Below are positions 10,364-54,623 of a DNA stretch of 64,000 nucleotides, one piece after another. Under the pieces are notes generated by a model, which was not told the DNA's origin, made no database searches, and worked only from the letters and a program-made list of their open reading frames with translations. Source of the stretch: Candidatus Saccharimonadota bacterium (GTDB taxonomy: Bacteria; Patescibacteriota; Saccharimonadia; Saccharimonadales; Saccharimonadaceae); assembly GCA_024699125.1 (NCBI GenBank), contig JAILQE010000004.1:16573-80572 (forward strand), given 5' to 3'. How positions within the stretch are numbered: position 1 is the stretch's first letter; every line of letters begins with the position of its first letter. The translations under genes were made by a program, and so were the position numbers.

Positions 10364-10372
10364 TGCTATAAT
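10364..10372 (+). promoter_or_regulatory. Leaderless-type promoter of rseP (TGCTATAAT)
   Basis: Starts at the base after the uppS stop codon. The -10 ends 6 nt before the ATG, so transcription should begin at the start codon itself. Confidence 0.75.
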
Positions 10373-10378
10373 AAACTT

Positions 10379-11575
10379 ATGGATATTTTTGTTGGAGTTA
10401 TTGTTGGTCTTTTAGTCCTAATGCTCCTCGTGACCGCACACGAGTTTGGTCATTTTATTGCTGCCCGCCGAAACGGCGTCAACGTACTCGAATTTGGTAT
10501 CTGTTTTCCACCACGTCTTGCCGCCTGGGTAAGAGACCCAAAAACCAAAAAATGGCACCGCTTGCCAAAATCTGAGTGGAAAAAGCCACAAAAAGGCCTG
10601 ATTTTTAGCCTTAATCTTTTGCCGGTGGGTGGTTTTTGCCAGATGGATGGCGAATCCGCCAGCGACACGCGCGACCATACTTTTGGCAAAGCCAGTTTTT
10701 GGAAGAAAACCAAAATCCTCTTTGCTGGCGTCGCCATGAACTGGCTAGCTTCCATCGTAATTCTCACGATTTTGGCCTGGACCGGCATGCCAACCTTTAT
10801 CGAAAACCAATTCACAATCGAGCCAGACACGCGCCACAACAACGAACCAGTAGTGATTGAAAGCGTGCTAGACGATTCGCCGGCCGCCAAGGCTGAGCTA
10901 AAAAATGGCGACAAAATTTTACAAATTAACGACACTGTCATCGTCACCCCAACCGACGTCAACACATTTAACCAAGCGCACGCCGGGGAAGAAGTCACCT
11001 ACAAAATTGATCGTGACGGCGAAAAAATTGAGTTCAAAATCACTTTAAATCCTAGCGGACAAACTCCGCTACTTGGCGTAGCAATGTCTGCCAAACAATC
11101 GCTTAGCTACTCTAGCTGGTCCGCGCCAATCGTGGGTGTAGGGCTCACCGCCCAACTCACCGGCGAAACTTTCAAGGGCGTAGGACAGCTCATCGGTAAT
11201 CTGTTTTCGGGCGTTTTTAACCAATTCAGCTTCAGCGACGCAGACCGCGAAGCCGGCCGCGCCGCTTTGTCTGACGCTTCAGACCAAGTCTCCGGCCCAG
11301 TTGGCATCATCGGCCAAATCTTCCCAACCTTCACCTCGGCCGGCGCCACCAACGTCGCCTTCCTGGCTGCCCTCATCTCGATTTCGCTTGCCTGCATGAA
11401 TGTCATTCCTATCCCTGCTCTCGATGGCGGCCGCTGGCTCCTCATCGCCATCTTTAAACTCCGCAAAAAGGAACTTAGCAAGGAAACTGAAGAAAAAATC
11501 GTGGCTCGCGCCTTCCTCTTCCTATTAATTTTGCTCGTCCTTATCACCGTTTTAGATATTAAGAGGTTCTTCTAA
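10379..11575 (+). CDS. rseP: Site-2 membrane zinc metalloprotease (RseP family)
   Basis: 398 aa intramembrane protease. HEFGH (residues 21-25) in the first helix gives the zinc ligands and catalytic Glu; a periplasmic-type PDZ domain (SPAAKAELKNGDKILQIND) lies in the middle, and NVIPIPALDGGRW near the C-terminus supplies the third ligand. It cleaves membrane-embedded regulators or leftover signal peptides; the substrate here is unknown. The start is placed at the ATG 6 nt after a -10 box with no ribosome site. The next gene overlaps its stop codon by one base, pairing two membrane proteases. Confidence 0.93.
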   Translation: MDIFVGVIVGLLVLMLLVTAHEFGHFIAARRNGVNVLEFGICFPPRLAAWVRDPKTKKWHRLPKSEWKKPQKGLIFSLNLLPVGGFCQMDGESASDTRDHTFGKASFWKKTKILFAGVAMNWLASIVILTILAWTGMPTFIENQFTIEPDTRHNNEPVVIESVLDDSPAAKAELKNGDKILQINDTVIVTPTDVNTFNQAHAGEEVTYKIDRDGEKIEFKITLNPSGQTPLLGVAMSAKQSLSYSSWSAPIVGVGLTAQLTGETFKGVGQLIGNLFSGVFNQFSFSDADREAGRAALSDASDQVSGPVGIIGQIFPTFTSAGATNVAFLAALISISLACMNVIPIPALDGGRWLLIAIFKLRKKELSKETEEKIVARAFLFLLILLVLITVLDIKRFF

Positions 11576-12336
11576 TGAAAAAATTGCTAGAAAAATTTGA
11601 GAACTTCCGGAAAAAGCACCCAGTGCCGAAAAAACTCCGCACGCCACTCGCAATTTTGTCGCTGCTTTTGTGGGTAGCCATCGCCTCAATCGGCGCGCAA
11701 TATCTTGTGGGTTACCTCTTGCTTTGGACGATCGGCGTCGACAGGTTAGGTATCAATACGTTCAACGTGCTTTACCAAGTCATATCCTACGCCGTGACGC
11801 TTTTCCTAGTAATTTACGTGCCATACAAAATCTCCAAAAAAGGCAAAACCACGCGCGAGGAAATCGGTCTCAAAGGCTGGCCAACCTGGACAGACATCTG
11901 GCTTTCACCACTCGGCTTTATTGCCGCAACACTAATTGCCATGGCTCTCGCCGCATTATTCAGCCTCTTCCCATGGTTTAATGCTGATGAAGCCCAAAAC
12001 ATCGGCTATACCACCTTGCTTTACGGCAGCGACCGCATCTTCTCGTTTATCGCCACCGCCATCATCGCGCCAATCGTTGAGGAAATCGTGTTCCGCGGCT
12101 GGCTCTACGGCAAAATCCGCTCCCGCCTCAACATGTTCGCCTCGATCTTTATCGTATCGCTACTATTTGGCCTCGTGCACATGCAATGGAACGTAGGCGT
12201 CAACGTGTTTGCTACTTCCATCGTGTTGTGCGCCCTGCGCGAAATGACCGGCACCATCTATTCCGGCATCCTAGTCCATATCATCAAGAACGGTATAGCG
12301 TTTTGTCTAGTTTACATAATGGGCATTGGCTTATAA
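11575..12336 (+). CDS. CPBP-family intramembrane metalloprotease
   Basis: 253 aa with about seven membrane helices. The family (Abi/CaaX, PF02517) signatures are visible: EEIVFRGW (EExxxR), GLVHMQWN (FxxxH-type) and a third His-containing helix SGILVHIIKNG. Members cleave prenylated proteins or peptide precursors inside the membrane; the target is unknown. The TAATG overlap with rseP implies translational coupling. A 116-nt palindrome follows the stop codon. Confidence 0.88.
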   Translation: MKKLLEKFENFRKKHPVPKKLRTPLAILSLLLWVAIASIGAQYLVGYLLLWTIGVDRLGINTFNVLYQVISYAVTLFLVIYVPYKISKKGKTTREEIGLKGWPTWTDIWLSPLGFIAATLIAMALAALFSLFPWFNADEAQNIGYTTLLYGSDRIFSFIATAIIAPIVEEIVFRGWLYGKIRSRLNMFASIFIVSLLFGLVHMQWNVGVNVFATSIVLCALREMTGTIYSGILVHIIKNGIAFCLVYIMGIGL

Positions 12337-12452: not shown

Positions 12453-12461
12453 TGATATAAT
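12453..12461 (+). promoter_or_regulatory. Leaderless-type promoter of proS (TGATATAAT)
   Basis: -10 at 12456-12461, 7 nt before the ATG at 12469. An upstream in-frame ATG at 12460 overlaps the -10 box and cannot be the start. Confidence 0.75.
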
Positions 12462-12468
12462 GTACATT

Positions 12469-13704
12469 ATGAGACTATCTAAATCGTTTATCAAAACCTT
12501 GCGCGATGCGCCAAAAGACGAAACCGCGAGATCTGCCGGTTATTTGATTCGCGCGGGTTATATTTATAAAGAAATGGCTGGCGTTTATGACTATTTGCCA
12601 CTCGGGCTTAAAGTTATCGAAAACATCAAAGCCATCATTCGCGACGAAATCAACAAAATTGGCGGCCAAGAAGTTTTGATGTCCGCTTTGCAAAATCCAG
12701 AACTCTGGCAAAAAACCGATCGTTGGGACGACCAAAAAGTTGATATTTGGTTTAAAACCGAGCTCTCCGCCGGCGGCGAACTAGGCCTCGCCCCAACTCA
12801 CGAAGAGCCAATCACGAACCTCGTTAAAACCTACGTCAAAAGCTACAAAGATTTACCTTTGGCTGTTTACCAGTTCCAAACCAAGTTTAGAAACGAGCTT
12901 CGCGCCAAGTCTGGCATCATGCGCACCCGCGAATTTATCATGAAGGACCTCTATAGCTTCCATACTTCAGAAGAAGATTTGGACCGTTATTACCACGAAG
13001 TTGAAGGCGCCTACGCCCGCATTTATGACCGCCTCGGCCTCGGCGACGACACCTACGAAACCTTTGCCTCTGGTGGCGTTTTCTCCAAATATTCTCACGA
13101 ATATCAAACCTTTATCCCAGTAGGTGAAGACACAGTCTACTACAATGCAGATCGCTCCAAAGTTTTGAATGAAGAAGTTTTGCAAGATGACGTCCTTGCT
13201 GATCTTGGCGTCAAAAGAGAAGAGCTCGAGAGCACCCGCGCCGCCGAAGTGGGCAACATCTTTAAGTTGAAATTCAAATATTCTGAGCCTTTGGGCCTAA
13301 AAATCTCTAGCAAAAACAACGAGATGCAAAACGTCTATATGGGCTGCTACGGTATTGGCGTATCCCGCGTGATGGGCGTGATTGCCGAAAAATTCTGCGA
13401 TGACAAAGGCCTCGTCTGGCCAGCCAGCATCGCTCCATTTAAGTGCTACCTCATCGCCATTGGCGACGAAGGCACCAAACTTGCCGAGCAAATCTATGCC
13501 GCACACGAAAACGACATCATCTTTGACGACCGCGCCGCCCGCCCAGGCGAAAAATTCGCCGACGCCGACCTCATGGGTATCCCATACCGCGTCGTTATCT
13601 CTGATAAAACCCTGAGCGAAAACGCTATCGAAGTCACCAACCGCAAAACTGGCGAATCTAAATTGGTCCCAGCTTCTGAGCTTGAAAAGTTATTGACAGA
13701 TTAG
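12469..13704 (+). CDS. proS: Prolyl-tRNA synthetase without editing domain
   Basis: 411 aa class II synthetase that charges tRNA-Pro. Motif 2 region (FRNELRAKSGIMRTREFIMKDLYSF), TxE loop (THEEP) and motif 3 (GCYGIGVSRVMG) are intact, followed by the anticodon-binding domain. The roughly 180-residue INS editing insert that bacterial-type enzymes carry between motifs 2 and 3 is missing, explaining the short length; mischarged Ala-tRNA-Pro would need another route. The start follows from the promoter position. No ribosome site is present. Confidence 0.93.
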   Translation: MRLSKSFIKTLRDAPKDETARSAGYLIRAGYIYKEMAGVYDYLPLGLKVIENIKAIIRDEINKIGGQEVLMSALQNPELWQKTDRWDDQKVDIWFKTELSAGGELGLAPTHEEPITNLVKTYVKSYKDLPLAVYQFQTKFRNELRAKSGIMRTREFIMKDLYSFHTSEEDLDRYYHEVEGAYARIYDRLGLGDDTYETFASGGVFSKYSHEYQTFIPVGEDTVYYNADRSKVLNEEVLQDDVLADLGVKREELESTRAAEVGNIFKLKFKYSEPLGLKISSKNNEMQNVYMGCYGIGVSRVMGVIAEKFCDDKGLVWPASIAPFKCYLIAIGDEGTKLAEQIYAAHENDIIFDDRAARPGEKFADADLMGIPYRVVISDKTLSENAIEVTNRKTGESKLVPASELEKLLTD

Positions 13705-15913: not shown

Positions 15914-15942
15914 TTGCCAATCTGCGCCTTTTATGTTAAAAT
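15914..15942 (+). promoter_or_regulatory. Leaderless-type promoter of lysS
   Basis: TTGCCA-17-TAAAAT with TG one base before the -10; the -10 ends 6 nt before the ATG. Confidence 0.7.
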
Positions 15943-15948
15943 CGCCTT

Positions 15949-17394
15949 ATGTTATTAGAAGACTATCGCAACGAAAGACTCAAAAAACTTGAAGAGATCA
16001 AAGCTCGCGGCATCGATCCGTATCCAGCTAAATCTTTTCGCAACACCAAAATTTCCGACATCATCGACCATTTTGATGAAAAAGCCGGCCAAGAAGTTAT
16101 CGTGGCTGGGCGCATTGTCGCTATCCGTTCTTTCGGCAAACTAGTCTTTCTAAAAATCCGCGATTACTTTGGTGAAGTCCAAATCTTCATGAAGGCTGTC
16201 GACGAGCAGCCAGAAGGCCTCTTTGGCGCAAAAGATGTGCGCCTGCTTGATACTGGCGACTTTATTGAAGCGAAGGGAATCGTAGATAAATCCCAAACTG
16301 GCGAAATCTCCGTTTTTGCAAACTTCGTACGCCTACTGACTAAATCACTTCGTCCACTTCCTGAGCAATTCACCAACAAGGAAGAGCGCTACCGCCGCCG
16401 CTACGTCGACATGAACGTCAACCGCGAGGTACGTGACCGCTTGGTGCGCCGCTCCAAATTCTGGCAAGCCACGCGCGATTTCATGAACGCCCACGGCTTT
16501 ATTGAGGTCAACGTACCAGTGCTCGAGCATACCACCGGTGGTGCCGACGCTACGCCATTCGTCACCCATATCAACGCCTACGACGAAGATTTGTATCTTC
16601 GCATTTCCCACGAGTTGCCATTGAAACGCCTACTTGGTGGTGGCTTTGAAAAAGTCTACGACATTGGCCCACGCTTCCGCAACGAAGGCGTCGACGACGA
16701 GCATTTGCCAGAGCACATCGCCTTTGAATCTTACGCCGCCTACGATAACTACGAAGACGGTATCAAACTTTACGAAGAAATGATCAAATACGTCGCCAAA
16801 GAAACTTGGGGCACGCTCAAATTCCACGTTAGTGGTTTTGATATCGATCTCGAAGGCGAATGGCCACGCGTCAAATATTCCGACCTTTTGAAAGAAAAAT
16901 ATAATGTTGACGTCTTTAATCCAGACCGCGCACAACTGCTCCAAATCCTGAAAGACAACGGCGTAGAAGTAAAAGAAGGTGTTTCAACCAGTCGCCTTAT
17001 CGACGACGTTTGGAAACTCATCCGCAAAACTTCCGCTGGCCCATACTGGCTCGTGGAAGAGCCGTTAGCTTTAAGCCCACTTGCTAAAGTTTCACCAGAA
17101 AACCCACTCGTTACTGAGCGCTTCCATCCAATCATTGCCGGTACCGAAATGGGCAACGGCTATTCAGAGCTTAATGATCCTTTGGATCAACTTAACCGCT
17201 TCAAAGAACAACAAGCCGCGCGCGACGCCGGCGACGACGAAGCTCAAATGCTCGACCAAGACTTTGTCGAGATGCTTGAATATGGTATGCCACCAGCCTG
17301 TGGTTGGGGCAATAGCGAACGTAACTTCTGGTTGCTAGAGGGTGTGCCTGGCCGTGAAGCCGTACCATTCCCGACCATGAAAGAAAAAGAATAA
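15949..17394 (+). CDS. lysS: Lysyl-tRNA synthetase, class II
   Basis: 481 aa. N-terminal OB-fold (VIVAGRIVAIRSFGKLVFLKI) for anticodon binding, then the class II core with motif 1-2 features (FIEVNVPVLEHTTGGADATPF, RISHELPLKRLLGGGFEKVYDIGPRFRNEG) and the C-terminal motif 3 part. Motif 3 appears as ACGWGNSERNFWLL, where most enzymes have G(I/L)GIDRL, a visible deviation. uvrB follows after 3 nt. Start defined by the adjacent promoter; no ribosome site. Confidence 0.93.
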   Translation: MLLEDYRNERLKKLEEIKARGIDPYPAKSFRNTKISDIIDHFDEKAGQEVIVAGRIVAIRSFGKLVFLKIRDYFGEVQIFMKAVDEQPEGLFGAKDVRLLDTGDFIEAKGIVDKSQTGEISVFANFVRLLTKSLRPLPEQFTNKEERYRRRYVDMNVNREVRDRLVRRSKFWQATRDFMNAHGFIEVNVPVLEHTTGGADATPFVTHINAYDEDLYLRISHELPLKRLLGGGFEKVYDIGPRFRNEGVDDEHLPEHIAFESYAAYDNYEDGIKLYEEMIKYVAKETWGTLKFHVSGFDIDLEGEWPRVKYSDLLKEKYNVDVFNPDRAQLLQILKDNGVEVKEGVSTSRLIDDVWKLIRKTSAGPYWLVEEPLALSPLAKVSPENPLVTERFHPIIAGTEMGNGYSELNDPLDQLNRFKEQQAARDAGDDEAQMLDQDFVEMLEYGMPPACGWGNSERNFWLLEGVPGREAVPFPTMKEKE

Positions 17395-19392: not shown

Positions 19393-19401
19393 TGCTATAA
19401 T
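19393..19401 (+). promoter_or_regulatory. Leaderless-type promoter of the phosphoketolase genes
   Basis: TGCTATAAT directly after the uvrB TAA; -10 ends 7 nt before the ATG. Confidence 0.75.
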
Positions 19402-19408
19402 TATAAGC

Positions 19409-20350
19409 ATGAACGGGATGGGCATCACTGATATCGAAACCTTATCCAAGATTCAGAGGCGCGTGCGTGCATGCGACTATCTTTCTGTTGCCCAACTTTA
19501 TCTAAAAGACAACTTTATATTGGAGCGCCCGCTCACGACGGACGATATCAAACCACGCCTACTTGGCCACTGGGGCACCTGTCACGGCATTAACGTAGCC
19601 TACGCCAACCTCAAAGAAAATTTTAAAAACGATCCGAATTTTTCCTTTATCTTAGGGCCTGGCCATGGCTTTCCAGCACTCCAAGCTAACCTGTTTTATG
19701 ATGGCGACCTCTTAAAAGTCGACGAAAAAGCCACCATAAACTACGACGGCCTAGCCTACATTTGCAAAAACTTTTCTTGGCCAGACGGCTTTCCGTCCCA
19801 CGCTAGCCCATTCACGCCGGGCGTCATCACTGAGGGCGGGGAGCTAGGCTACGCCCTAGCCAACGCCTACGGCGCTGCACTTGGCCACCCAGAAAAAACC
19901 ATCGCCGTGCTGATTGGCGACGGCGAACTTGAGACCGCCACCGCACTTGATTCATTGAACCTCAAAAACATCCTAGGAGGCAGAAACAACGGCAAAATCC
20001 TGCCAATTTTACACCTCAACGGCTACAAAATTTCTGCTCCGACCATTTACGCGCGCAAATCCGAGCGGGAGCTAAACGAACTAATTCGTGGCTTTGGTTT
20101 TGATCCAATCTTGATCTACAAAGACACGCCAGAAGCCTTCCAAAACGCTCTCGCCGTAAATTCCAAAGCTCCATTCTTCATCTTGAAGACCGAAAAAGGC
20201 GCCACCGGCCCAAATCGTTATCACATGGCACATCAAATCCCATTAAAGAAAGTCAAAACCGACGAAACAGAACTAAAATCCCTCGAGGACTGGCTAAAAT
20301 CTTACAATTTTGCCGAGCTTTTCGATAAAGAAAAGGGGTTCTATGAGTAA
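19409..20350 (+). CDS. xfp: Phosphoketolase, N-terminal (PP-domain) subunit
   Basis: 313 aa matching the first ~40% of xylulose-5-/fructose-6-phosphate phosphoketolase (XFP_N). Visible signatures: RLLGHWGTCHG, LGPGHGFPA, EGGELGYALANAYGA, and the thiamine diphosphate/Mg motif GDGELE...N (residues about 170-195), then PILHLNGYKI. It stops where the PP domain ends in the usual ~800-residue enzyme; the domain linker is absent and the rest is encoded by the next gene, which overlaps by 8 nt. The pair would give acetyl phosphate plus a triose or tetrose phosphate from sugar phosphate. Confidence 0.88.
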   Translation: MNGMGITDIETLSKIQRRVRACDYLSVAQLYLKDNFILERPLTTDDIKPRLLGHWGTCHGINVAYANLKENFKNDPNFSFILGPGHGFPALQANLFYDGDLLKVDEKATINYDGLAYICKNFSWPDGFPSHASPFTPGVITEGGELGYALANAYGAALGHPEKTIAVLIGDGELETATALDSLNLKNILGGRNNGKILPILHLNGYKISAPTIYARKSERELNELIRGFGFDPILIYKDTPEAFQNALAVNSKAPFFILKTEKGATGPNRYHMAHQIPLKKVKTDETELKSLEDWLKSYNFAELFDKEKGFYE

Positions 20351-21551
20351 CGTCGTAATGGATTTTTTGAAGTCTCATAACAGGGAAAAATCGGAGAAAA
20401 CCCAGGCGCCTGAATTATTCTCGCCGGCCATCGAACTTGGCAAATTACTCGCCAAAAGAATGCAAGAAGACCCACATTTTTACTTGTTCTCACCAGATGA
20501 AACCACATCCAACAAGCTCGACGCGGTTTTTGACGTAGAAAAACGCGCTTGGAGCCTGCCAATCGCTAAATGGGACCTTCCGGAATCCGACAATGGCCGC
20601 ATTATCGAAATGCTTTCCGAAAACGTCCTGTTCTCGGTGATGACCGGCCACATTCTAAATGGCGAGCAAGCCATGATGACGAGCTACGAGGCTTTCTTCC
20701 CGGTGATTACATCACAACTCTTGCAACAAATGAAATTCTTTAAGCAATGCAACGCCACTAGCTGGCGCAAGAAATATCCAGCTATCAATCTGCTTTCAAC
20801 TTCCACCTGCTGGCGCCAGGATCACAACGGCTTTACGCACCAATCTCCAGCATTAATCTCTACCTTGCTCGCCGTGCCGTCTAATCTCGCCAACTGTCTA
20901 TTTCCAGTAGACGACATTGCCGCGCGCGAAGCCTTTTACTTTATGCTCAATACCAGAAATGTTGTAAATCTTACAACATTTAATAAGATAGACGAGCCAC
21001 GTTTTCTCGATAAAGAAACTGGCGGACTAAACTTCCATACAGGCGGAGCCAGCATCTTCGAATCCGTTTCTGATGACGATCCAGATTTTGTGTTTGTGGG
21101 TGTCGGCGACTTGGTGTCCAAAGAAGCTATCGAAGCTATCAATATTTTGCGTCGCGATTTACCAGAATATAAATATCGCTTCGTGAACGTAAACGCACTT
21201 TCGTATCGCTCCATTGGCACCACTAACGCGAAGCTCACAAAAGAGCAATTCGAAAAACTCTTTACCAAAGACCGGCCAATTATTGCCAACTTCCACGGCT
21301 ATCCAGAAACCTTTGAAACCATTCTCGAAAACTACACCTATCGCGGCCGCGTACGCGTGCATGGCTTCGTAGAAGAAGGTTCCACCACCACGCCATTCGA
21401 AATGTTGCGCCGAAACGTTGCGTCGCGCTACGACCTTGCTATCGACGTAGCCACCGTCCTAAAACGCACTGACCTCGTCGAAAAATACCAAGAGACTTTG
21501 AAGCAAAATCACGAGCACGCTATCCAATTTGGCGAAGATTTGATAAAATAG
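20343..21551 (+). CDS. xfp: Phosphoketolase, C-terminal (Pyr + C domain) subunit
   Basis: 402 aa matching the middle and C-terminal domains of phosphoketolase. FSPDETTSNKLDAVF carries the conserved Glu that activates thiamine diphosphate, WRQDHNGFTHQSP holds the catalytic His, and EEGSTTTPFEMLRRN is in the C-terminal domain. The start at MSNVVMDF is chosen because of the AAGGGG site and because it overlaps the upstream stop region (ATG inside TATGAGTAA); an earlier in-frame start overlapping 40 nt is less likely. Both halves keep their active-site residues, so this looks like a working two-subunit enzyme rather than a frameshifted pseudogene. Confidence 0.88.
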   Translation: MSNVVMDFLKSHNREKSEKTQAPELFSPAIELGKLLAKRMQEDPHFYLFSPDETTSNKLDAVFDVEKRAWSLPIAKWDLPESDNGRIIEMLSENVLFSVMTGHILNGEQAMMTSYEAFFPVITSQLLQQMKFFKQCNATSWRKKYPAINLLSTSTCWRQDHNGFTHQSPALISTLLAVPSNLANCLFPVDDIAAREAFYFMLNTRNVVNLTTFNKIDEPRFLDKETGGLNFHTGGASIFESVSDDDPDFVFVGVGDLVSKEAIEAINILRRDLPEYKYRFVNVNALSYRSIGTTNAKLTKEQFEKLFTKDRPIIANFHGYPETFETILENYTYRGRVRVHGFVEEGSTTTPFEMLRRNVASRYDLAIDVATVLKRTDLVEKYQETLKQNHEHAIQFGEDLIK

Positions 21552-21558
21552 CCCCATT

Positions 21559-22383
21559 ATGGAATTATTTATTTTAATTATCGTTTTGGCGATTTTTGCT
21601 GAAACCACATTTTTAATTATTACCAACAAAAAACCACTCATCGCCGAAGCGCGCCGCAAAATCTATGTCGACACCTCGGCCTTGATCGACGGTCGCATTC
21701 TAAATATTGCCAAGACTGGCTTTATTAGTGACGATCTCATCATTTTAAAAAGCGTTCTAAAAGAATTGCAGCTTCTTGCCGACGGCAAAGACAGCGCTAA
21801 GCGTGCCCGCGCTCGTGCCGGGTTAGACCTCGTGAATGAGCTAGAGCGCATCGTGCATTTTAACGTTGAAATCGTCGATGATGGCGATGCCAACGTCAAA
21901 GTAGACGAGCAACTCTTAAAGTATGCCAAGGCTAATCACGGTGCCATTTTGACGCTTGATTTTAACCTTATCAAAGTTGCTACCGCCGAAAAAATTACCA
22001 CATTAAACGTCAATGATTTAGCACTTTCGCTCCGCAATGAGTTTTTGCCGGGCGAAAAAATCACTCTCAAAATCACCGACAAAGGTGCCAACAAAGGCCA
22101 GGGAATTGGTCACTTACCAGACGGCACCATGGTAGTCGTAGATAACGCCGCCACAAAAATCGGCGAAAGTCTTTTGGTGGAATTTGTTAAGTTCCACGAG
22201 ACTTCCGCCGGTAAAATGATCTTTGCGAAGATTCTAACTACTCAGTCTTCTTCTCGTCCTTCTGCTCGTCTTTATCCTCAGACTCAGAAGACTTCTCAGG
22301 TTCAGTCGGCTTCTCCGGCTCCTCGACAGGCGTCAAGGTCATCGAGGAATCCGCTACGTAACCGTACTCGTCAGAAATCGTAA
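21559..22383 (+). CDS. PIN/TRAM-domain protein (YacL-like)
   Basis: 274 aa. One N-terminal membrane helix (LFILIIVLAIFAETTFLII), a PIN nuclease-like domain with acidic residues (YVDTSALIDGR, ELQLLADGKDSAKRARARAG, LTLDFNL) and a TRAM RNA-binding domain (GANKGQGIGHLPDGTMVVVDNA). The last ~53 residues (SSSRPSARLYPQ onward) are Ser/Arg-rich, unlike the family, and are encoded antisense to the acidic tail of the convergent PBP gene. A TGATAAAAT -10 at the upstream stop ends 9 nt before the ATG. Confidence 0.85.
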   Translation: MELFILIIVLAIFAETTFLIITNKKPLIAEARRKIYVDTSALIDGRILNIAKTGFISDDLIILKSVLKELQLLADGKDSAKRARARAGLDLVNELERIVHFNVEIVDDGDANVKVDEQLLKYAKANHGAILTLDFNLIKVATAEKITTLNVNDLALSLRNEFLPGEKITLKITDKGANKGQGIGHLPDGTMVVVDNAATKIGESLLVEFVKFHETSAGKMIFAKILTTQSSSRPSARLYPQTQKTSQVQSASPAPRQASRSSRNPLRNRTRQKS

Positions 22384-25057
22384 TCTTCACATTCTTTTCT
22401 TTGCCGGTTACCGTATAACCCGTAATCTCACCGTTAGCTGCGATAGAAATTGCAGAATAATCGGTGCCATCAACTGTTAAAGTATAACCCTTAATTGCCT
22501 GGCTACCTTTTACAATCGTGGCATAGAATTTGCCACCAGAACTTGAAATAGATACAGCCGGAGCTACGTAATCACAAGTATCCGATACTTCATGATTATA
22601 AGGCGCATCAACCTTGAAAGTCTCTTTCTTAGATACAGGGTCAACCACCTTTGTCACTTCGATTTCAATCTTAAAAGCGGCCGGAGTACATTCAGCGGCA
22701 AGCAATTTATTGTACTTGTTAAACGTCTTGGTTTCCTTAGAAACGCCAGAGTTTTTATCAGCATTGTACCAGCTTGGCCAAATATCAGTGATACCATTTA
22801 CTGTCAAAGTCTTGATACCGGCTGGAACTGCTGGTTGGTCGCCATAGTGCCACTTACCATCTGGTTCGTAGACTTCCTTATGAACACGTTCCATGTAAGT
22901 ACCAGCTGTCTTAGCTGCAACTTCGTGCGTACTACTCGCGATGCCAGAACCATCGTGGTTACCGTTCCAAACGAAGGTAGAGATGGCAGTAGAGAAGCTC
23001 TCCATCATAGAGTCCTTGGTCACATTGGAGCTAGCAGTAGTGGTAGTACCAGTTTTAGTACCGGTCCATACGCCAGGTACCACGAAACCCGAACCGTTCC
23101 ATGGGCGAGCGCCGCGATCGCCTAAGACATTCATGAGAAGGTAGGCAATTTGTGGGTCGATTACTTGGGTGGCTGGAGCATCTTGCCATGATTCGATAAT
23201 GTCACCAGAAGAGTTTTTAACTTCAAGAACATAGGCAATGTCTTTATAGGCGCCGCCACGTACAAGGGAAGCATAGGCGTTGGCGTGCTCAACCATCTTT
23301 ACGCCACAACCTGAACCAATTGCGATCGAAAGGCCATAGGTGGCTTCAGTGTCTGCACAATAAGCCTTGTCACCAAGAGCATGAGCAATCTCGAGTGAGT
23401 TCCCGATGCCATTAATATATAGAGCTTTTACAGCTGCAATATTGAGGGAATTACCGAGTGAACGACGAATCGTAATATCACCAGCAAAAGTCCTAGAATA
23501 GTTAGCAAGTGAACAAGCGCCTCTATAACCAGCACAATAAATCGAGTCAATGTTTTCATCACGAAGAATTGTACCAGGGCCATAGTTAATACCTTCACGT
23601 TGCATAAAGAGTGGAGCGTAATCAAGAATTGGCTTGATCGTAGAGCCTGGCTCAATTGATGAGTCTACCGTTACGTTTTGCTCACCATAGGTTGGGTTAT
23701 TGAAATCAATCGAACCGACCATCGCAATCACTTGGGCGGTTTCAACATCCAACGAAACGAGAGCGAGGTTATCGCTGCGGTTCATGTAAGTAATACCGGC
23801 GCCAACAGCAATTGCGTCTTCAGCGATCTTTTGAGCACGCGTATCGAGCGTGGTAGTAATTGTCCAACCACCAGCGCGCATCGTTGAGATACCGTATTTT
23901 TCCTCGAGCTGTTTGCGCACTTCAAGCACAAAATGAGGAGCAATCATATCAGAATATTGGCTAGCTTCTGGTTTAATCGTGTCAAGAATTGGCACTTCCT
24001 TAGCCTCATCAGCTTTCTCTTGGCTGATGTAGCCCATTTGAGCCATCACGTCGAGAGTTTTGTGTTGACGCTCAAGCAAGGCTTCGTTACCGTAAGTATT
24101 GTATGGGTTAAGCACACCTGGGTTGTTTGGAATTGAAGCAAGAAGCGCAGATTCAGCCAAAGTCAAATCTTTAGCAGACTTGCCAAAGTAGGTTTGTGCA
24201 GCAGACTCTACACCGTTACGGCGACCACCATAAGGCGACTGGTTGAGATACATAGTAATAATCTGCTCTTTATCATACATACGCTCAAGCTCAATTGAAA
24301 GAATCAACTCTTTGATTTTACGAGCAAGACCACCACGGCTTTCACTTGCGGCTTCATCCGAGAAGTAAACCTGCTTGATAAGCTGCTGAGTCAGTGTAGA
24401 ACCGCCTTGCACGCCGCTACCAGAAAGAGTAGAAAAGGTTGCACGGATTAAGGCGAGAAAATCAACGCCAGCGTGATTATAGAAGTTTCTATCCTCGATA
24501 GCCACAGTTGCCCAGCGCATATAATCGCTAATCTCGGAACCGTCAACCACGAGACGATAATCTTCGCTACCAGTATCTTTCCAGAGCACAACACCGTTGC
24601 GGTCGAGATAAGTGTTAACTGTTTCAGAAATAGTCATCTCATCGAGGCGGATTTCATCAAGATCTTTCTTGTAATACAAGAATAGACCACCGATAAAGAT
24701 AACGAGAAGTAGAAAACAAGCCGCAAAAAACTTTAGAATGGCTTTTTGGCCACGCCAAGAAAACCACCATTTAAATACACGTTTTGGATGGAGTCTAGCA
24801 AAGAAGCGTTTGACCGGTTCTTTAGGGAGAGATGCCAAATCCTCGGCCTTGCGACGTGCCTCGGCGTCTTTCTTTGCTTTGTGTCTATAAACTAGACTAG
24901 AATAAAGACCTTTTTTGCTCCCGGTTTTCTTCTCTTTAGGAGCGCTTGTCTTTTTCTCAGCTTTAACCTTGCTCAGGCTAAGCTTGTCCTGCTTTTTATC
25001 AGTTTTTTTAGCGTCTTTTTTAGACGGCAAAATAACTTCCGACTTTTTTCTACTCAT
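22238..25057 (-). CDS. Class A penicillin-binding protein (PBP1A-like)
   Basis: 939 aa bifunctional peptidoglycan polymerase. A ~110-residue Lys-rich cytoplasmic N-terminus and one membrane helix (ILKFFAACFLLLVIFIGGLF) precede the GT51 glycosyltransferase domain (VAIEDRNFYNHAGVD, GGSTLTQQLIKQ) and the transpeptidase with SxxK (EPGSTIKP), SxN (RRSLGNSLN) and KTGT (WTGTKTGTTTT). An Ig-like C-terminal domain and an acidic Pro/Glu/Lys tail follow. On the minus strand a TGGTATAAT box ends 6 nt before the ATG, a leaderless-type start. The last 146 nt overlap the PIN/TRAM gene tail to tail. Confidence 0.95.
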   Translation of the reverse strand: MSRKKSEVILPSKKDAKKTDKKQDKLSLSKVKAEKKTSAPKEKKTGSKKGLYSSLVYRHKAKKDAEARRKAEDLASLPKEPVKRFFARLHPKRVFKWWFSWRGQKAILKFFAACFLLLVIFIGGLFLYYKKDLDEIRLDEMTISETVNTYLDRNGVVLWKDTGSEDYRLVVDGSEISDYMRWATVAIEDRNFYNHAGVDFLALIRATFSTLSGSGVQGGSTLTQQLIKQVYFSDEAASESRGGLARKIKELILSIELERMYDKEQIITMYLNQSPYGGRRNGVESAAQTYFGKSAKDLTLAESALLASIPNNPGVLNPYNTYGNEALLERQHKTLDVMAQMGYISQEKADEAKEVPILDTIKPEASQYSDMIAPHFVLEVRKQLEEKYGISTMRAGGWTITTTLDTRAQKIAEDAIAVGAGITYMNRSDNLALVSLDVETAQVIAMVGSIDFNNPTYGEQNVTVDSSIEPGSTIKPILDYAPLFMQREGINYGPGTILRDENIDSIYCAGYRGACSLANYSRTFAGDITIRRSLGNSLNIAAVKALYINGIGNSLEIAHALGDKAYCADTEATYGLSIAIGSGCGVKMVEHANAYASLVRGGAYKDIAYVLEVKNSSGDIIESWQDAPATQVIDPQIAYLLMNVLGDRGARPWNGSGFVVPGVWTGTKTGTTTTASSNVTKDSMMESFSTAISTFVWNGNHDGSGIASSTHEVAAKTAGTYMERVHKEVYEPDGKWHYGDQPAVPAGIKTLTVNGITDIWPSWYNADKNSGVSKETKTFNKYNKLLAAECTPAAFKIEIEVTKVVDPVSKKETFKVDAPYNHEVSDTCDYVAPAVSISSSGGKFYATIVKGSQAIKGYTLTVDGTDYSAISIAANGEITGYTVTGKEKNVKITISDEYGYVADSSMTLTPVEEPEKPTEPEKSSESEDKDEQKDEKKTE

Positions 25058-25063
25058 GCACTA

Positions 25064-39939: not shown

Positions 39940-39945
39940 ATCCCT

Positions 39946-39953
39946 ATTATACA
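39946..39953 (-). promoter_or_regulatory. Leaderless-type promoter of DUF916-like paralog 3
   Basis: TG-TATAAT on the minus strand, -10 (39946-39951) ends 6 nt before the ATG. Confidence 0.7.
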
Positions 39954-40555: not shown

Positions 40556-40894
40556 ATGGCTGAAGCCAAAAAAGCTGCCCCAAAAGCAGAAGGACTCAAA
40601 ATCCGCATCCGCTTAAAAGCCTATGACCACCGTGTCATCGACCAAAGCACCAAACAAATCGTAGATACCGCTATCCGCACCGGCGCCTCCGTATCTGGCC
40701 CAGTGCCTCTACCAACCAAGCGTTCTACCTTTACCGTAGTTAAATCCCCACATGTCTACAAGACCGGTGGTGAAGCTTTCGAAATGAAAGTCCACAAACG
40801 CTTGATCGACATCAACAACGCCACCCCAAAAACCATCGAGAGCCTTCAAAATCTCTCTTTGCCTGCTGGCGTCGATGCCGAAATCAAAATGTAA
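40556..40894 (+). CDS. rpsJ: Ribosomal protein uS10
   Basis: 112 aa. [43 protein letters not shown] and the C-terminal [10 protein letters not shown] are diagnostic. A 14-residue Lys/Ala extension precedes the core. It is a single-gene unit with its own promoter and terminator; the S10 operon that normally follows (rplC onward) is not here. Confidence 0.96.
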
Positions 40895-40934: not shown

Positions 40935-40943
40935 TGCTATAAT
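40935..40943 (+). promoter_or_regulatory. Leaderless-type promoter of the cell-wall operon
   Basis: TGCTATAAT, -10 at 40938-40943 ends 6 nt before the ATG at 40950. Overlapping the rpsJ terminator tail. Confidence 0.75.
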
Positions 40944-40949
40944 ATTTTT

Positions 40950-42221
40950 ATGAAATTAATCGCTAAATTAAAGAAGCGTTTTTACTTTGTTGCTGCAAAA
41001 TACTTCCGACACTTCGCAAAACGCTCCCTAAAACGCTGGAATCCCCGCATTATCGCTATTACTGGCTCCGCTGGCAAAACCACCATGCTTCACATCGCCG
41101 AGCACGAACTAAACGGCAAAGCCCACTATTCGCACGACGCAAACTCGGCCTTTGGTGTCTCTTTTGATATCCTAGGCATCAAGGGAATTAAAGGCTCTAA
41201 ATCCCGCTGGATTTATCTAATTCTCGCCGCCCCTATCAAATCGCTCTATTATAAGCATAAAGAGCCATTTTACGTCGTTGAAATCGATGGCGAGCGCCCA
41301 CACGAGACCGAATTTCTCGCCACTTGGCTCAAACCAGAGGTCACCATCTGGGTGTCCATCGGTTTATCTCATGCTGTTCAGTTTGAAAACGAAGTCGAAT
41401 CCGGTCACTTTAAGAACCTCGCTTCTGCCATTACCGCCGAGTTCGCTACTCTCCCTCAAAACACCCAAAAATTAGTCTATATTGACTCCGAGCAACCTCT
41501 AATGCGTGAAGCTACTAAAGATATCAAAGCCAAGGTAGTCGCTTTCAAAAAATCTGACCTCAAGAAGTACGTTGTCTACCCAAATCACACCGATTTTACC
41601 TACGGCAGCACCACCTTCCACTTTAACCACCCACAGCCACGTGAGATCGCTTATCAGTTGTTGGTAGCTCAAGATCTCATGCGCTATCTCAAGATGCCAT
41701 TTAACCCAGATTTCTCCGACCTCGATATGCCACCAGGCCGCAGCAATTATCTCCGTGGTAAAAAGGGAATCAACATTATCGATAGCAGTTATAATGCCCA
41801 CATTATCTCTGTTGCATCCATTCTAGATATGGTCAGGCGCTTGCATGCCGAAGAAAAATGGCTAATTATTGGCGACATTGTTGACCAGGGTTCCATCGAG
41901 GGCGACGAGCACCAAAAACTCGCCGAATTAATTGCCGATGCCAAACCAGACAACATTATTTTGGTTGGTCGCCGCACCAAAAAATACACCGCGCCTCGTC
42001 TTAAAGAGCTTGGCTATTCTGCCCACACCACTCTCGACCCACGTAAAGCCCTCGAATACATCGAGAAACACACCACTGGCAAAGAAACCCTGATTTTTAA
42101 GGGTAGCCAATATCTCGAGTGGATCATCGAGAAACTCCTCGAAGATCCAGCTGATGCCGATAAGCTCTGCCGCCGCGAAAAAGCCGCTGTGGCTCGCCGC
42201 AAGAAATGGGGGCTAGACTAA
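40950..42221 (+). CDS. Mur ligase family protein (MurF-like)
   Basis: 423 aa ATP-dependent peptide ligase. A basic N-terminus precedes the P-loop ITGSAGKTTM, the middle domain (VVEIDGERPHETEFL, ILVGRRTKK) and the C-terminal domain with DSSYNAH and GDIVDQG. The DSYNAN-like and GDM-like motifs point to MurF or a MurF-like ligase adding residues to the muropeptide. It lacks the usual N-terminal UDP-MurNAc domain length, so the acceptor is uncertain. It opens a five-gene operon with hydrolase, DegT-type and two FemX-like genes. Start set by the promoter; no ribosome site. Confidence 0.82.
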   Translation: MKLIAKLKKRFYFVAAKYFRHFAKRSLKRWNPRIIAITGSAGKTTMLHIAEHELNGKAHYSHDANSAFGVSFDILGIKGIKGSKSRWIYLILAAPIKSLYYKHKEPFYVVEIDGERPHETEFLATWLKPEVTIWVSIGLSHAVQFENEVESGHFKNLASAITAEFATLPQNTQKLVYIDSEQPLMREATKDIKAKVVAFKKSDLKKYVVYPNHTDFTYGSTTFHFNHPQPREIAYQLLVAQDLMRYLKMPFNPDFSDLDMPPGRSNYLRGKKGINIIDSSYNAHIISVASILDMVRRLHAEEKWLIIGDIVDQGSIEGDEHQKLAELIADAKPDNIILVGRRTKKYTAPRLKELGYSAHTTLDPRKALEYIEKHTTGKETLIFKGSQYLEWIIEKLLEDPADADKLCRREKAAVARRKKWGLD

Positions 42222-50464: not shown

Positions 50465-50473
50465 TGCTATAAT
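50465..50473 (+). promoter_or_regulatory. Leaderless-type promoter of dnaE (TGCTATAAT)
   Basis: -10 at 50468-50473 ends 6 nt before the ATG at 50480; an earlier in-frame TTG at 50462 overlaps the box. Confidence 0.75.
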
Positions 50474-50479
50474 AAAACT

Positions 50480-53400
50480 ATGTCAAAAGTGGAGTTAAAA
50501 CCGAGTGATTTTGTACACCTACATAATCACACTCATTATTCGCTCTTGGATGGTTTGACCAAAATTCCAGAGCTCGTTGACTATGTCAAAGAGCAGGGAA
50601 TGGAGGCGGTCGCCGTCACTGACCATGGCACGATGAGTGGCTTGGTTGAGCTCTACAAATGCTGTAACGACGCCGGCATCAAACCGATTCTTGGCCTTGA
50701 AGCCTACGTGGCTACCCGCAAAATGACCGACAAAGACCCGGCTCACGATAAGCAGCGCTTCCATATTACTTTGCTTGCAATGAACAATACCGGCTTCGAA
50801 AACCTCTGCCGCATCATGTCTAACGCCGAAATCCACGGCAAATATTACAAACCACGCACTGACCACGACGAGCTCGAGAAATACAACGAAGGTATTATTT
50901 GTCTTTCCGGTTGTATGGGTTCCGAAATTTCTGAAGCGATTCGCGCCGATGATGACAAGCGTGCGCTAGAGCTCATCGATTGGTATCGTAACGTTTTTAA
51001 GGACCGTTTTTATCTCGAGATGCAGGATCACGGCCATCCAAAATCTACTACCCATTCCGCCGAGCAAAAGAAGGTTAACGATTGGCTAATGGCACACGCC
51101 GAAGAGCTCGGTTTGCCGCTCGTGGTCACTTGCGACGCCCACTATTTGAAGCACGAAGACCAAGACGCCCATGAGGTTCTACTTTGTGTGGGTACCGCCG
51201 CCAACCTTTCTGACCCCAACCGCATGACGTTAAAGGATTATGACCTGCACGTAATCTCCGCGCAGGAAATCATCGACCACTGGCAAGACACCTGCCCAGA
51301 AGCCGTGTTAAACACCAAGCGCATTGCCGACCGCTGCAACGTAGACTTGCAACTCGGTCGCATTTTAATTCCAAAATTCCCAGTGCCAGATGGCGAAGAC
51401 GAAAAATCCTACCTTGATAAGCTCGTTTTTCGTGGACTAGTTTTCCGCTATGGTGGTAAAACTGCCGAAGAAGCTGAAAAACTCAGCGTAGAAGAGTGCC
51501 GCAAGATCCTTGAGAAAGTCGACAAAGATCGCGACGAAAAAACTCAGATTCTGCCACGTATCGACTACGAGCTATCAGTCGTAGACAAAATGGGCTATAA
51601 CGGCTACTTCCTCATCGTGCAAGACTTTATTATGTGGGGCAAGAACAAAAATATTGTGTACGGCCCAGGCCGTGGCTCTGCCGCCGGTTCACTCCTCGCT
51701 TACGCCCTCCGTATCACCGAGCTCGACCCACTTAAATACGACTTGCTCTTTGAGCGCTTCCTCAATCCGGACCGTATCTCCATGCCAGATATCGATACCG
51801 ATATCCAGGATACTCGCCGCGACGAGGTGATTGAATACTGTACCGAAAAATACGGCGAAGGCCGCGTGTCTAACATTGCTACCTTTGGTAAAATGATGGC
51901 CAAAAACGCTGTGCGCGACGTAGCGCGCGTACTCGAGGTGCCTTATGCCGAGGCAGACCGCTTGGCTAAAATGGTGCCAGACCCAGTAATGGGCCACCAC
52001 TGCCATCTCGCCGATGCCATTAAAGACGTGCCAGACCTCAAAAACGAGTACGAAACCAACCCGATTTCAAAAGAAGTTCTAGATTTTGCCTCACGACTTG
52101 AAGGAACCATCAGAAACCACGGCGTGCACGCTTGTGGCGTAGTGATTGCACCAGACGACCTCGTAAAATTCTTGCCCCTTGAAGTCTCCGCCAAAGGCCC
52201 AATCGCAGCCCAATTCCCAATGGGCACCGTAGAAGAGCTAGGCCTACTTAAAATGGACTTCCTCGGCCTCTCCAACCTTTCCGTGATCAACAACGCTCTT
52301 CGCATGATTCGCAAGGTCTATCACGAAGACATCGACATGTACTCGGTGCCGCTCGACGACCCCGAAACTTACAAGCTCCTACAACGGGCCGATACCACCG
52401 GCGTCTTCCAGCTTGAATCTGCCGGCATGAAACGCTATCTCAAAGACCTCAAAGCCTCGTCGTTTGAGGATATCATCGCTATGGTGGCGCTTTATCGCCC
52501 GGGCCCAATGCAGTTTATCGATTCGTTTATTCGCCGCAAGCACGGGGAAGAAGCCATCACTTATCTTCACCCAGGCCTTGAGAACGCACTCAAAAGCACC
52601 TATGGCATTATGATCTACCAGGAGCAGTTCATGCAGATTTCCAAGGAATGGTGTGGCTTTACCGGCGGCCAGGCAGATACTTTGCGTAAAGCCGTGGGTA
52701 AGAAAAAAGTGGATTTGATGAAGAAGGTTAAGCCGGAATTCATCAAGGGCGCCGTGGAAATTGGTGGTGCCACCGAAGAAATTGCCGAAACCTTCTGGAG
52801 CCAGCTACTCGACTTTGCTAACTACTGTTTCAACAAGTCCCACGCCGCATGTTACGCACTCGTAGCTTATTGGACCGCGTATTTAAAGGCCCATTATCCA
52901 GACGCCTTCATGGCTGCCCTCATGACCGCCGATATGCGCTGGACCGACCGCCTAGCTATCGAAATCGCCGAATGTAAGCACCTCGGCCTCAAAGTGCTTG
53001 GCCCAGACATCAACCAATCCTACGGCGACTTTGGTATCGTAGGCGGCGAAAAAACCATCCGCTTCGGCCTTTCTGGCGTGAAAAACATGGGTAAATCTTT
53101 AATCGAAGACATCGTAATTCCAGAACGCGACAAAAACGGTCCATTTAAGAGCGTTTGCGACTTTGCCAAGCGCGTAGACTCCACCAAGTTTAATAAGAAA
53201 TCTTGGGAAGCCGCCATCAAGACCGGCGCGTTTGACCGCTTTGGTTATTCGCGCTCCGACTTACTATTTAATCTCGAAGCTATCCAAGCCTACGGCGCCA
53301 AGGTTCAAAAAGACGTGGGCTCCGGCCAGACCGACCTCTTTGGCGCGATGGGAGAAGCCGGTGCCGTGCCAGAAGTCGAAATCAAGAAAGCCCCAACTTC

Positions 53401-54202
53401 CTTCTCCGACAAAGAGCAACTTTTGTGGGAGCGCGATTTGATGGGTCTCTACCTTTCCGCCCACCCACTCGATAAATACGATACTTACTTTAACGAGCAA
53501 ACCCACCCATTAAACTACGTCGCAGCAGAGAACAATAACAAATTGATTTCTGTAGGCGGCATCATCACGGCCGTGCGCACGATTTTAACCAAATCAAACA
53601 CTAAGATGGCCTTCGTAAAAATCGAAAACAAGACCGGCGAATGTGAAGTCATCGTGTTCCCATCACTCTTCGAAACCTGCGGCGCCAAATTGGTAGTAGA
53701 TAACGTGATCAAAGTCACCGGTAAGGTCAACGCCACTGACAAAGACGGCAACCCAACTTCAGAAGTAAAGTTGATGGGCGAAACTATCGATATTATCTCA
53801 GACGAAATGCTCGAAAACTATCAACCTACCGGCGAAAAATTACCAGAGCCAGTGGCTGCCGAACCAAAGAAACGCCGCTATTCCAAATCTTCCGCCGAAA
53901 AAGTTTATTCCGGCACCAAAAAGCCAGCCGAACCAGCCGCTCCAGCCGCTCCGGTCACACCGCCAAAAGATCCGCGCAAAGAACGCCTCTTCCTTTTGAT
54001 TGAAAATCCAAACGACACCGATACTTTAGCCGCCATTCGCCGCCTTTGCGATATCAACCTCGGCTTCCAAGACGTTATCCTAGTTTTGAAAGAGGGTGAG
54101 GATAAACATCCGCTCAAAATGCCATTTAAAGTAGACGCCACGCCAGAGCTCATCGCAAAACTCGAAGAGCTTATCGGCAAAGATAACGTCAAAATGGTAT
54201 AA
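50480..54202 (+). CDS. dnaE: DNA polymerase III alpha subunit
   Basis: 1240 aa replicative polymerase. N-terminal PHP domain (FVHLHNHTHYSLLDGLTKI, AVTDHGTMSG), then the palm with VYGPGRGSAAGSLLAY and the catalytic MPDIDTDIQD, the thumb/fingers, HhH region and an OB-fold (ISVGGIITAVRTI). A Pro/Ala-rich linker (about residue 1120-1160) separates the C-terminal tau-binding-like domain. DnaE1 type rather than PolC. No ribosome site. Confidence 0.97.
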   Translation: MSKVELKPSDFVHLHNHTHYSLLDGLTKIPELVDYVKEQGMEAVAVTDHGTMSGLVELYKCCNDAGIKPILGLEAYVATRKMTDKDPAHDKQRFHITLLAMNNTGFENLCRIMSNAEIHGKYYKPRTDHDELEKYNEGIICLSGCMGSEISEAIRADDDKRALELIDWYRNVFKDRFYLEMQDHGHPKSTTHSAEQKKVNDWLMAHAEELGLPLVVTCDAHYLKHEDQDAHEVLLCVGTAANLSDPNRMTLKDYDLHVISAQEIIDHWQDTCPEAVLNTKRIADRCNVDLQLGRILIPKFPVPDGEDEKSYLDKLVFRGLVFRYGGKTAEEAEKLSVEECRKILEKVDKDRDEKTQILPRIDYELSVVDKMGYNGYFLIVQDFIMWGKNKNIVYGPGRGSAAGSLLAYALRITELDPLKYDLLFERFLNPDRISMPDIDTDIQDTRRDEVIEYCTEKYGEGRVSNIATFGKMMAKNAVRDVARVLEVPYAEADRLAKMVPDPVMGHHCHLADAIKDVPDLKNEYETNPISKEVLDFASRLEGTIRNHGVHACGVVIAPDDLVKFLPLEVSAKGPIAAQFPMGTVEELGLLKMDFLGLSNLSVINNALRMIRKVYHEDIDMYSVPLDDPETYKLLQRADTTGVFQLESAGMKRYLKDLKASSFEDIIAMVALYRPGPMQFIDSFIRRKHGEEAITYLHPGLENALKSTYGIMIYQEQFMQISKEWCGFTGGQADTLRKAVGKKKVDLMKKVKPEFIKGAVEIGGATEEIAETFWSQLLDFANYCFNKSHAACYALVAYWTAYLKAHYPDAFMAALMTADMRWTDRLAIEIAECKHLGLKVLGPDINQSYGDFGIVGGEKTIRFGLSGVKNMGKSLIEDIVIPERDKNGPFKSVCDFAKRVDSTKFNKKSWEAAIKTGAFDRFGYSRSDLLFNLEAIQAYGAKVQKDVGSGQTDLFGAMGEAGAVPEVEIKKAPTSFSDKEQLLWERDLMGLYLSAHPLDKYDTYFNEQTHPLNYVAAENNNKLISVGGIITAVRTILTKSNTKMAFVKIENKTGECEVIVFPSLFETCGAKLVVDNVIKVTGKVNATDKDGNPTSEVKLMGETIDIISDEMLENYQPTGEKLPEPVAAEPKKRRYSKSSAEKVYSGTKKPAEPAAPAAPVTPPKDPRKERLFLLIENPNDTDTLAAIRRLCDINLGFQDVILVLKEGEDKHPLKMPFKVDATPELIAKLEELIGKDNVKMV

Positions 54203-54203
54203 T
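54195..54203 (+). promoter_or_regulatory. Leaderless-type promoter of smpB overlapping the dnaE stop
   Basis: TGGTATAAT includes the last codons and TAA of dnaE; -10 ends 6 nt before the smpB ATG. Confidence 0.75.
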
Positions 54204-54209
54204 TAGGGT

Positions 54210-54623
54210 ATGAAAAAGGCCAAAGCCCCAGATTTGACGACTGTAAACCGTCGCGCCCACTTTGATTACGTGCTCAGCGACGAGCTTTCTGTTGGCATGG
54301 TTTTGACCGGCCCGGAAGTCCGCCTCATTCGCGACCACCACGTGCAGCTTCAGGGCTCTTTTGTGACGATTAGGAACGACGAACTCTGGCTAAATAACCT
54401 AACTCTTGGCGCCGATACAGCACGAAATATTAAGCTACTCGCCACCAAAAAACAGATTGCAGCCTTTGCTAAAGCCAAGGTTGCCGGCTCCACCATTGTA
54501 CCAGTTAAATTACTCGGCGGCAGCCGCCATATCAAACTCGTGATTGCACTTGGCAAAGGTAAGAAAAAATACGACAAACGCGAAACTATCAAGCAGCGCG
54601 ACCTAGACCGCGGGAGATTCTGA
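54210..54623 (+). CDS. smpB: SsrA-binding protein SmpB
   Basis: 137 aa partner of tmRNA in rescue of stalled ribosomes. NRRAHFDYVLSDELSVGMVLTGPEV, VTIRNDELWLNNL and the basic C-terminal GKGKKKYDKRETIKQRDLDR tail are diagnostic. Ends in TGA overlapping the next ATG (TGATGG), which also shows TGA is a stop here. The tmRNA gene is not in this window. Confidence 0.96.
   Translation: MKKAKAPDLTTVNRRAHFDYVLSDELSVGMVLTGPEVRLIRDHHVQLQGSFVTIRNDELWLNNLTLGADTARNIKLLATKKQIAAFAKAKVAGSTIVPVKLLGGSRHIKLVIALGKGKKKYDKRETIKQRDLDRGRF

Follow-up and report, generated by a model that had tools for sequence, protein, structure and literature searches.

A putative extended −10 promoter class that predicts leaderless mRNAs in a Saccharibacterium

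In Deinococcus-Thermus, a −10 box a few base pairs before the start codon drives leaderless genes and its spacing has been shown experimentally to be required; such genes account for about 30% of open reading frames (ORFs) on average across the phylum and coexist with genes that carry ribosome-binding sites (PMC12340547). Mycobacteria likewise hold many leaderless genes beside leadered ones in one genome (PMC4633059, PMC3898074), and the 5′-AUG mRNA of lambda cI is bound by 70S ribosomes and translated (PMC11514452). Zheng et al. (2011; PMC3160421) predicted TA-like leaderless signals across many bacteria, with 46.1% in Deinococcus radiodurans and a strong TG extension in Lactococcus, and GeneMarkS-2 also predicted leaderless genomes widely (Lomsadze et al., 2018, cited in PMC9581028). 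Here we analyse a window of 64,000 nucleotides (nt) from a Candidatus Saccharimonadota bacterium (contig JAILQE010000004.1, positions 16573–80572), in which an extended −10 box, mostly TGnTATAAT, ends a few nt before the start codon of many genes. Saccharibacteria are epibionts with tiny genomes, and their translation start is not described as leaderless in the literature searched. Among the papers listed, judged by their titles, the openings of their abstracts or how often the term occurs, none describes leaderless mRNAs in Saccharibacteria, Patescibacteria, the candidate phyla radiation or TM7, within a scope of openly accessible main texts; in PMC12641178 the word 'leaderless' appears in connection with YchF.

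The genome comprises 765,546 bases in 13 contigs and is 98.82% complete. Gene-level work covered the window and 16 further stretches, together 370,572 bases (48% of the genome; 45% GC), in which 312 genes and their starts were predicted with our own script. The distance between box and gene is given as the gap, the number of nt between the last base of the box and the start codon. Genome-wide, the pattern TGNTATAATN{3,12}ATG occurs 163 times and its reversed form 6 times, and TATAAT preceded an ATG 125 times at gap 6 against 10 times at gap 11. In the 371-kb sample, the 161 exact boxes were followed by starts of ORFs of at least 80 codons 48 times at gap 6 and 11 times at gap 7, then 0, 2, 0, 0, 0 and 0 times at gaps 10–15, with a second, broad group from gap 16 upward. 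Because gaps 10–15 are nearly empty, the box-to-ATG distance splits the genes into two groups. Nineteen permuted boxes averaged 0.16 starts at gap 6; on average each of them occurs 19 times, about 8.5 times less often than the real box (161). When starts were chosen by coding score only, TATAAT-like boxes at gap 6–9 were still in excess by 23% of 290 genes. The sequence-only reading of the window had proposed counting box-to-start distances against shuffled sequence, and had named the absence of a genome-wide peak near 6–7 nt as evidence against leaderless expression; the peak is there, at gap 6, and six shuffled upstream sets yield no TGnTATAAT motif.

A mixture model in which the Shine-Dalgarno (SD) motif, the box motif, the spacings and the choice of start were all free divided the 312 genes into 54% SD, 37.5% box-adjacent and 8.6% neither, or 170, 117 and 25 genes by best assignment. 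Gap 6 accounts for 73 of the 117 box-adjacent genes, gap 7 for 21 and gaps 8–9 for 10 (104 at gap 6–9), and the model shares within the class are 0.594 for gap 6 and 17.5% for gap 7. From the six dinucleotide-shuffled upstream sets the same procedure drew A-rich motifs of 2.7–3.6 bits, against 11.4 for the real set, with gap-6 shares of 0.005–0.092. The claim that box genes lack a ribosome site agrees with the wider sample, as an SD-like 4-mer occurs in just 1/104 genes at gap 6–9 compared with 138/170 SD-class genes. Starts are ATG in 102/104 of the former and 150/170 of the latter (p 0.003). The class is also concentrated where promoters are expected: 109/222 promoter-proximal genes (transcribed divergently from the upstream neighbour or lying over 10 nt behind it) are box-adjacent versus 5/73 operon-internal ones (at most 10 nt behind a same-strand gene; p 5e-12).

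An extended −10 element carries TG one base 5′ of the −10 hexamer, with T and R before the TG, and bacterial polymerases favour a pyrimidine at −1 and a purine at +1. Genes at gap 6 show the full TRTGnTATAAT form, with T at −17 in 0.59, R at −16 in 0.88, T at −15 in 0.90 and G at −14 in 0.85, and almost no −35 signal, the commonest base staying at or below 0.44 throughout −35 to −30. A T or C directly precedes the ATG in 71/73 gap-6 genes compared with 88/170 SD genes (Fisher 5e-14), which, given the preference of the polymerase, fits the A of the ATG as +1. Apart from an A-rich beginning after the box, the rest of the spacer is less constrained. Among 99 SD genes that head a unit, 54 have their best-scoring box within 150 nt and none has it nearer than 16 nt; the farthest of these boxes (up to 146 nt) may be due to chance.

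The arrangement recurs in relatives. Ahead of smpB, a box lies 6–9 nt before an in-frame start in 50/52 relatives with a match on the fetched contig; 40 of these 50 have it at gap 6, a pyrimidine stands at −1 in 50/50 and the start is ATG in 49/50, while the gap-6 spacers comprise 34 distinct sequences among the 40 relatives. For dnaE, the box is found at 6–9 nt in 37/80 relatives, 29 of them at gap 6, with a pyrimidine in 36/37. In many relatives without it, dnaE seems to lie close behind another coding sequence (read from the listing, unscored), and in several relatives a hairpin and a T-run seem to adjoin the dnaE box (by eye, unscored). Upstream of 908 genes from these 80 relatives, an exact box occurs 116, 16, 3 and 9 times at gaps 6, 7, 8 and 9, once over gaps 10–16, 93 times at 17–22 and 28 times at 23–26; a pyrimidine occupies −1 in 108/116 of those at gap 6. 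The closest of the 80 dnaE relatives kept is a 98% identical 'Candidatus Saccharibacteria' genome from water-buffalo omasum and the sole named species is Ca. Nanosyncoccus alces (83% identical), and the source habitat of this Saccharibacterium is likely the ruminant gut. The dnaE stop TAA (54200–54202) falls inside the TATAAT of smpB, and does so in 10/50 relatives as well; as a general rule, a stop codon within the box was rejected, being found in 1/24 close same-strand pairs of our sample, and is regarded as a local detail.

Within the phylum, five genomes of relatives gave exact gap-6 boxes against reversed ones of 84/0, 70/0, 81/0 (Ca. Nanosyncoccus alces), 72/1 and 38/1. A scan of 379 genomes comprised the genus (4, this genome included), the family (20), the order (8), the class (5) and other classes (342). 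The four genomes of the genus rank 1–4 of 379, with 480 boxes at gap 6 against 55 at gap 11; the corresponding sums are 783 against 261 for the family, 145 against 35 for the class and 8,599 against 4,464 for the other classes, where 122/342 genomes show an excess at p<0.01. Degenerate boxes combined with coding-only starts gave an excess of 9–15% (stricter core) and 17–21% (TAnnnT) in three of the eight genomes from other families of the order, and TAnnnT gave a gap 6–9 excess of 7–37% on 55–97 genes each across ten genomes other than the one studied here. From sequence comparison the trait thus looks widespread in the phylum, with the most box-rich genomes in the genus studied here. Two gauges were set aside on the way. 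Exact-box counts partly reflect box strictness, since the other families of the order sum to 142 at gap 6 against 128 at gap 11 and yet show the degenerate excess; model shares for genomes with weak motifs are overstated, at 0.5–0.8 with 4.6–5.4 bits, where shuffles reach 0.63–0.74 with 2.7–3.6 bits. One genome of another class combines a box-adjacent excess of 31–37% of 86 genes with a weak SD signal, and possibly represents a lineage with even more leaderless starts.

Our interpretation is that a box at 6–9 nt very probably marks a gene whose mRNA is leaderless. The box would act as an extended −10 promoter with transcription starting about 7 nt after it, the mRNA would begin at the A of the ATG or 1–3 nt earlier, and ribosomes would likely initiate directly on the 5′-AUG. 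On these grounds the genome strongly predicts leaderless expression for roughly one gene in four to one in three overall, and for roughly every second promoter-proximal gene. The proposal in the sequence-only reading is thereby strengthened by the spacing peak, the pyrimidine at −1, the near-exclusive ATG, the scarcity of SD motifs, the promoter-proximal placement and the conservation, and continues to be a prediction.

Three other explanations deserve weighing. The promoters might fire at the ATG while most protein is made from read-through mRNAs, leaving the leaderless form a small share; the idea overlaps with leaderless expression itself and, although 24/117 box-adjacent genes lie no more than 30 nt behind a same-strand gene, we consider it improbable. 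Half of the box-adjacent genes with a known upstream neighbour (57/114) are divergent from it, the hairpin and T-run that seem to adjoin the dnaE box point the same way, and the near-absence of SD-like 4-mers means that read-through RNAs would initiate poorly.

The AT-rich box might instead be a non-SD ribosome or S1 binding site, with the true transcription start farther upstream, which we hold to be very improbable. Bacteroidetes-type AT-rich ribosome sites also occur on operon-internal genes and come without promoter hallmarks, whereas here the box is promoter-like and accompanied by an initiator, and is present in just five of the 73 internal genes, where a ribosome site would be most needed. 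An S1-like protein of 357 amino acids (aa) is indeed present, and AT-rich upstream biases have been interpreted both ways (PMC5397173), but a TRTGnTATAAT at a fixed 6–7 nt with a pyrimidine at −1, and the same box at least 16 nt before SD genes, speak for a promoter. A real promoter combined with an mRNA start within the called ORF, or with a mis-set start codon whose true counterpart is farther 3′, is scarcely credible: the starts here are predicted, but an in-frame SD-type start within codons 6–31 occurs in only 2/117 box-adjacent genes (0/170 in the SD class), and the SmpB proteins of the 50 relatives begin alike, mostly with MKK as read from the listing and, in all but one, at ATG.

How leaderless and SD genes divide the work of the cell was approached through codon bias, with EF-G, EF-Tu, S2, the next gene (tsf according to the sequence-only reading) and S10 as the reference; these five were left out of the test. 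Of 216 first-of-unit genes, the top decile contains 18 SD genes, 2 box-adjacent ones and 1 of neither class, against 75, 107 and 13 among the remainder (p 2.5e-5, SD versus box-adjacent). The two box-adjacent genes are proS and one doubtful gap-0 call. Ten of the 21 top-decile genes were scanned and encode NusA, MscL, IF3 (of neither class), a pyrophosphatase, trigger factor, a KGG-repeat protein, DnaK, SecA, an S1-like protein and acetate kinase. If codon bias is read as expression level, genes of apparently high expression would mostly keep an SD site; high-demand genes would be retained in the SD group and many other units would be leaderless, which would also let intergenic regions shrink.

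On the ribosome side, the 16S rRNA of one genome of the same genus ends in GGATTACCTCCTTTC, so the anti-Shine-Dalgarno sequence is intact in that genome; no 16S gene was found in the assembly studied here, and just 1/30 genomes of the genus (this one included) had one, possibly a binning error. IF3 is present, and the S1-like protein (contig C2:18396-19412) scores below the rpsA cut-off. Together, an intact anti-SD, IF3 and an S1-like protein make both modes of translation plausible on one ribosome, which would then translate leaderless and SD mRNAs alike. NAD capping of the mRNAs that start with A is a speculation, after an idea in PMC11514452. A broader picture, which we rate at slightly below even, is that Saccharibacteria, and perhaps much of Patescibacteria, run a two-track system with one promoter type, in which the box-to-ATG distance alone (6–9 versus at least 16 nt) would set the mode, the leader track would serve high-demand genes, leaderless initiation would be the default for about half of the units, and terminator, stop codon and promoter would be fused in a reduced genome.

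Several observations weigh against leaderless expression or narrow its extent. The initiator is weaker at the longer gaps, with a pyrimidine at −1 in 14/21 genes at gap 7 and 6/10 at gaps 8–9, so that leaders of 1–3 nt are possible for some; 13/117 box-adjacent calls lie outside gap 6–9 and are doubtful; and, since the same box stands at least 16 nt before SD genes, it does not look special to leaderless genes. Among relatives, 43/80 have no box before dnaE, the eight genomes from other families of the order show no clear excess of exact boxes at gap 6, and the loci compared share genes and ancestry, with recurring orthologues, so their counts are non-independent. The classes do not differ in median codon bias (p 0.13), only at the top end, which means that box-adjacent genes are all but absent from the extreme without an overall shift; codon bias was accordingly dropped as a general class difference. 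The gene and start calls are self-made and cover 48% of the genome. With the same script, the gap 6–9 excess in Escherichia coli K-12 was −1% (87 genes), in a control of only 100 kb where no start has an exact box within 50 nt.

In the window itself, the 13 genes named by the sequence-only reading were checked letter by letter, and all 13 have a box at the gap it gave; its description of the boxes as mostly TGnTATAAT also holds, with eight exact, three TGnTAAAAT and two in which TG directly abuts TATAAT. On the plus strand, the exact box TGCTATAAT precedes rseP (10364..10381; RseP TIGR00054) with a 6-nt spacer and ATG at 10379, the N-terminal part of a phosphoketolase (19393..19411; match below curated cut-offs) with 7 nt and ATG at 19409, a MurF-like gene (40935..40952; Mur_ligase_C match) with 6 nt and ATG at 40950, and dnaE (50465..50482) with 6 nt and ATG at 50480. 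The box TGGTATAAT precedes gatC (28637..28655, +; gatC match; 7 nt, ATG at 28653), smpB (54195..54212, +; 6 nt, ATG at 54210) and, on the minus strand, PBP1A (25055..25072; PBP_1a_fam match; 6 nt, ATG at 25057), and TGATATAAT precedes proS (12453..12471, +; proline--tRNA ligase match) with 7 nt and ATG at 12469. The TGnTAAAAT form is carried by lysS (15934..15951, +; lysine--tRNA ligase match) as TGTTAAAAT, with a 6-nt spacer and ATG at 15949, and as TGATAAAAT by the gene called PIN/TRAM-type in the sequence-only reading (21541..21561, +; 9 nt, ATG at 21559) and by a GT4 glycosyltransferase gene (59026..59045, −; Glyco_transf_4 match; 8 nt, ATG at 59028). TG abuts TATAAT before murJ (26980..26997, +; MurJ TIGR01695; 7 nt, ATG at 26995) and before the minus-strand gene 39939–39010 (box 39937..39953; 6 nt, ATG at 39939).

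Some details of that reading needed amendment. The glycosyltransferase gene lies beyond the span that had been given for the promoter class, and the gene at 39939 gave no Pfam match at E 0.001, which leaves its label 'DUF916-like' unconfirmed. The PIN/TRAM gene has its box as described, while its identity receives only weak PIN-type ATPase matches below their cut-offs. The gene list missed bL31 (rpmE; 6479..6501, −), an outlier with TGGTATAAT, an 11-nt spacer and ATG at 6481. The contrast genes rpsB, frr and metK do belong to the SD class, which in the window includes S2, RRF, GreA, EF-G, EF-Tu, S10 and MetK; its plus-strand members include rpsB (7332..8018), fusA for EF-G (32690..34789), tuf for EF-Tu (37050..38234), rpsJ for S10 (40556..40894) and frr, which has the same box at gap 19 (9109..9139). 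The window contains 23 exact TGnTATAAT boxes, of which eight are at gap 6–7, one at gap 11 (bL31) and seven at gap 17–37, all before SD-class genes; the remaining seven have no ATG opening at least 60 codons within 45 nt.

Three exact boxes (36365−, 36423+ and 36762+) lie in a stretch of about 1.1 kb between gene 35920− and tuf (37050+). The first is 53 nt before a 102-aa ORF (36303–35995, −); the other two have no ORF of at least 60 aa within 45 nt, and could belong to tuf or to untranslated RNAs. Nor do the boxes at 61512−, 57767−, 15873− and 40453+ have an ATG-initiated ORF of at least 60 aa within 45 nt; the box at 40453+ lies 94 nt ahead of rpsJ and that at 57767− lies 67 nt ahead of the called start at 57691−, and these four may be long-leader promoters. 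A SAM riboswitch (59070–59165) is located directly 5′ of metK, whose called start (59161) falls inside the last bases of the riboswitch. ProS is short (12469–13704, 411 aa) and matches its family in two stretches. In the phosphoketolase region (19409–21551), the match of a 313-aa ORF stops early in the family model and a 402-aa ORF follows with an overlap, which may reflect a split gene or a frameshift.

If about half of the units are leaderless, the box could guide the re-annotation of gene starts, a ribosome site may be dispensable in expression constructs for tractable strains, and the division between leaderless and SD genes by apparent expression would be testable in one small genome. Promoters of tuf and rpsJ are reported for a transformable strain (PMC10633639), and transcriptome data exist for Nanosynbacter lyticus TM7x (PMC10768705). 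The excess at gap 6 in many genomes of other classes (122/342) also bears on the age of leaderless initiation in bacteria.

GTG serves as a start codon too in mycobacteria, whereas in this Saccharibacterium ATG opens 102 of the 104 genes at gap 6–9. Their transcript starts have been mapped, and those proposed here are predicted (PMC4633059, PMC3898074). Lambda cI is a single model transcript in E. coli (PMC11514452). The study of Zheng et al. (PMC3160421) resembles ours in the computational detection of a TA-like signal adjoining the start; the word 'candidate' is absent from its main text, and the pyrimidine at −1, the codon-bias split and the empty zone at gaps 10–15 come from the present analysis. 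Patescibacteria and Saccharibacteria are unnamed in the main text of PMC12340547, a scope outside which its domain-wide Fig. S7 falls. The Deinococcus-Thermus system described there is similar in having a −10 box adjacent to the ORF alongside genes with ribosome-binding sites, and differs in that its box is TANNNT, compared with mostly TRTGnTATAAT in this 0.77-Mb genome, where the arrangement is known from sequence alone. Relative to the literature compared, the mechanism is known elsewhere, and what is added here is its lineage, the sharpness of the two-mode spacing and the split by codon bias.

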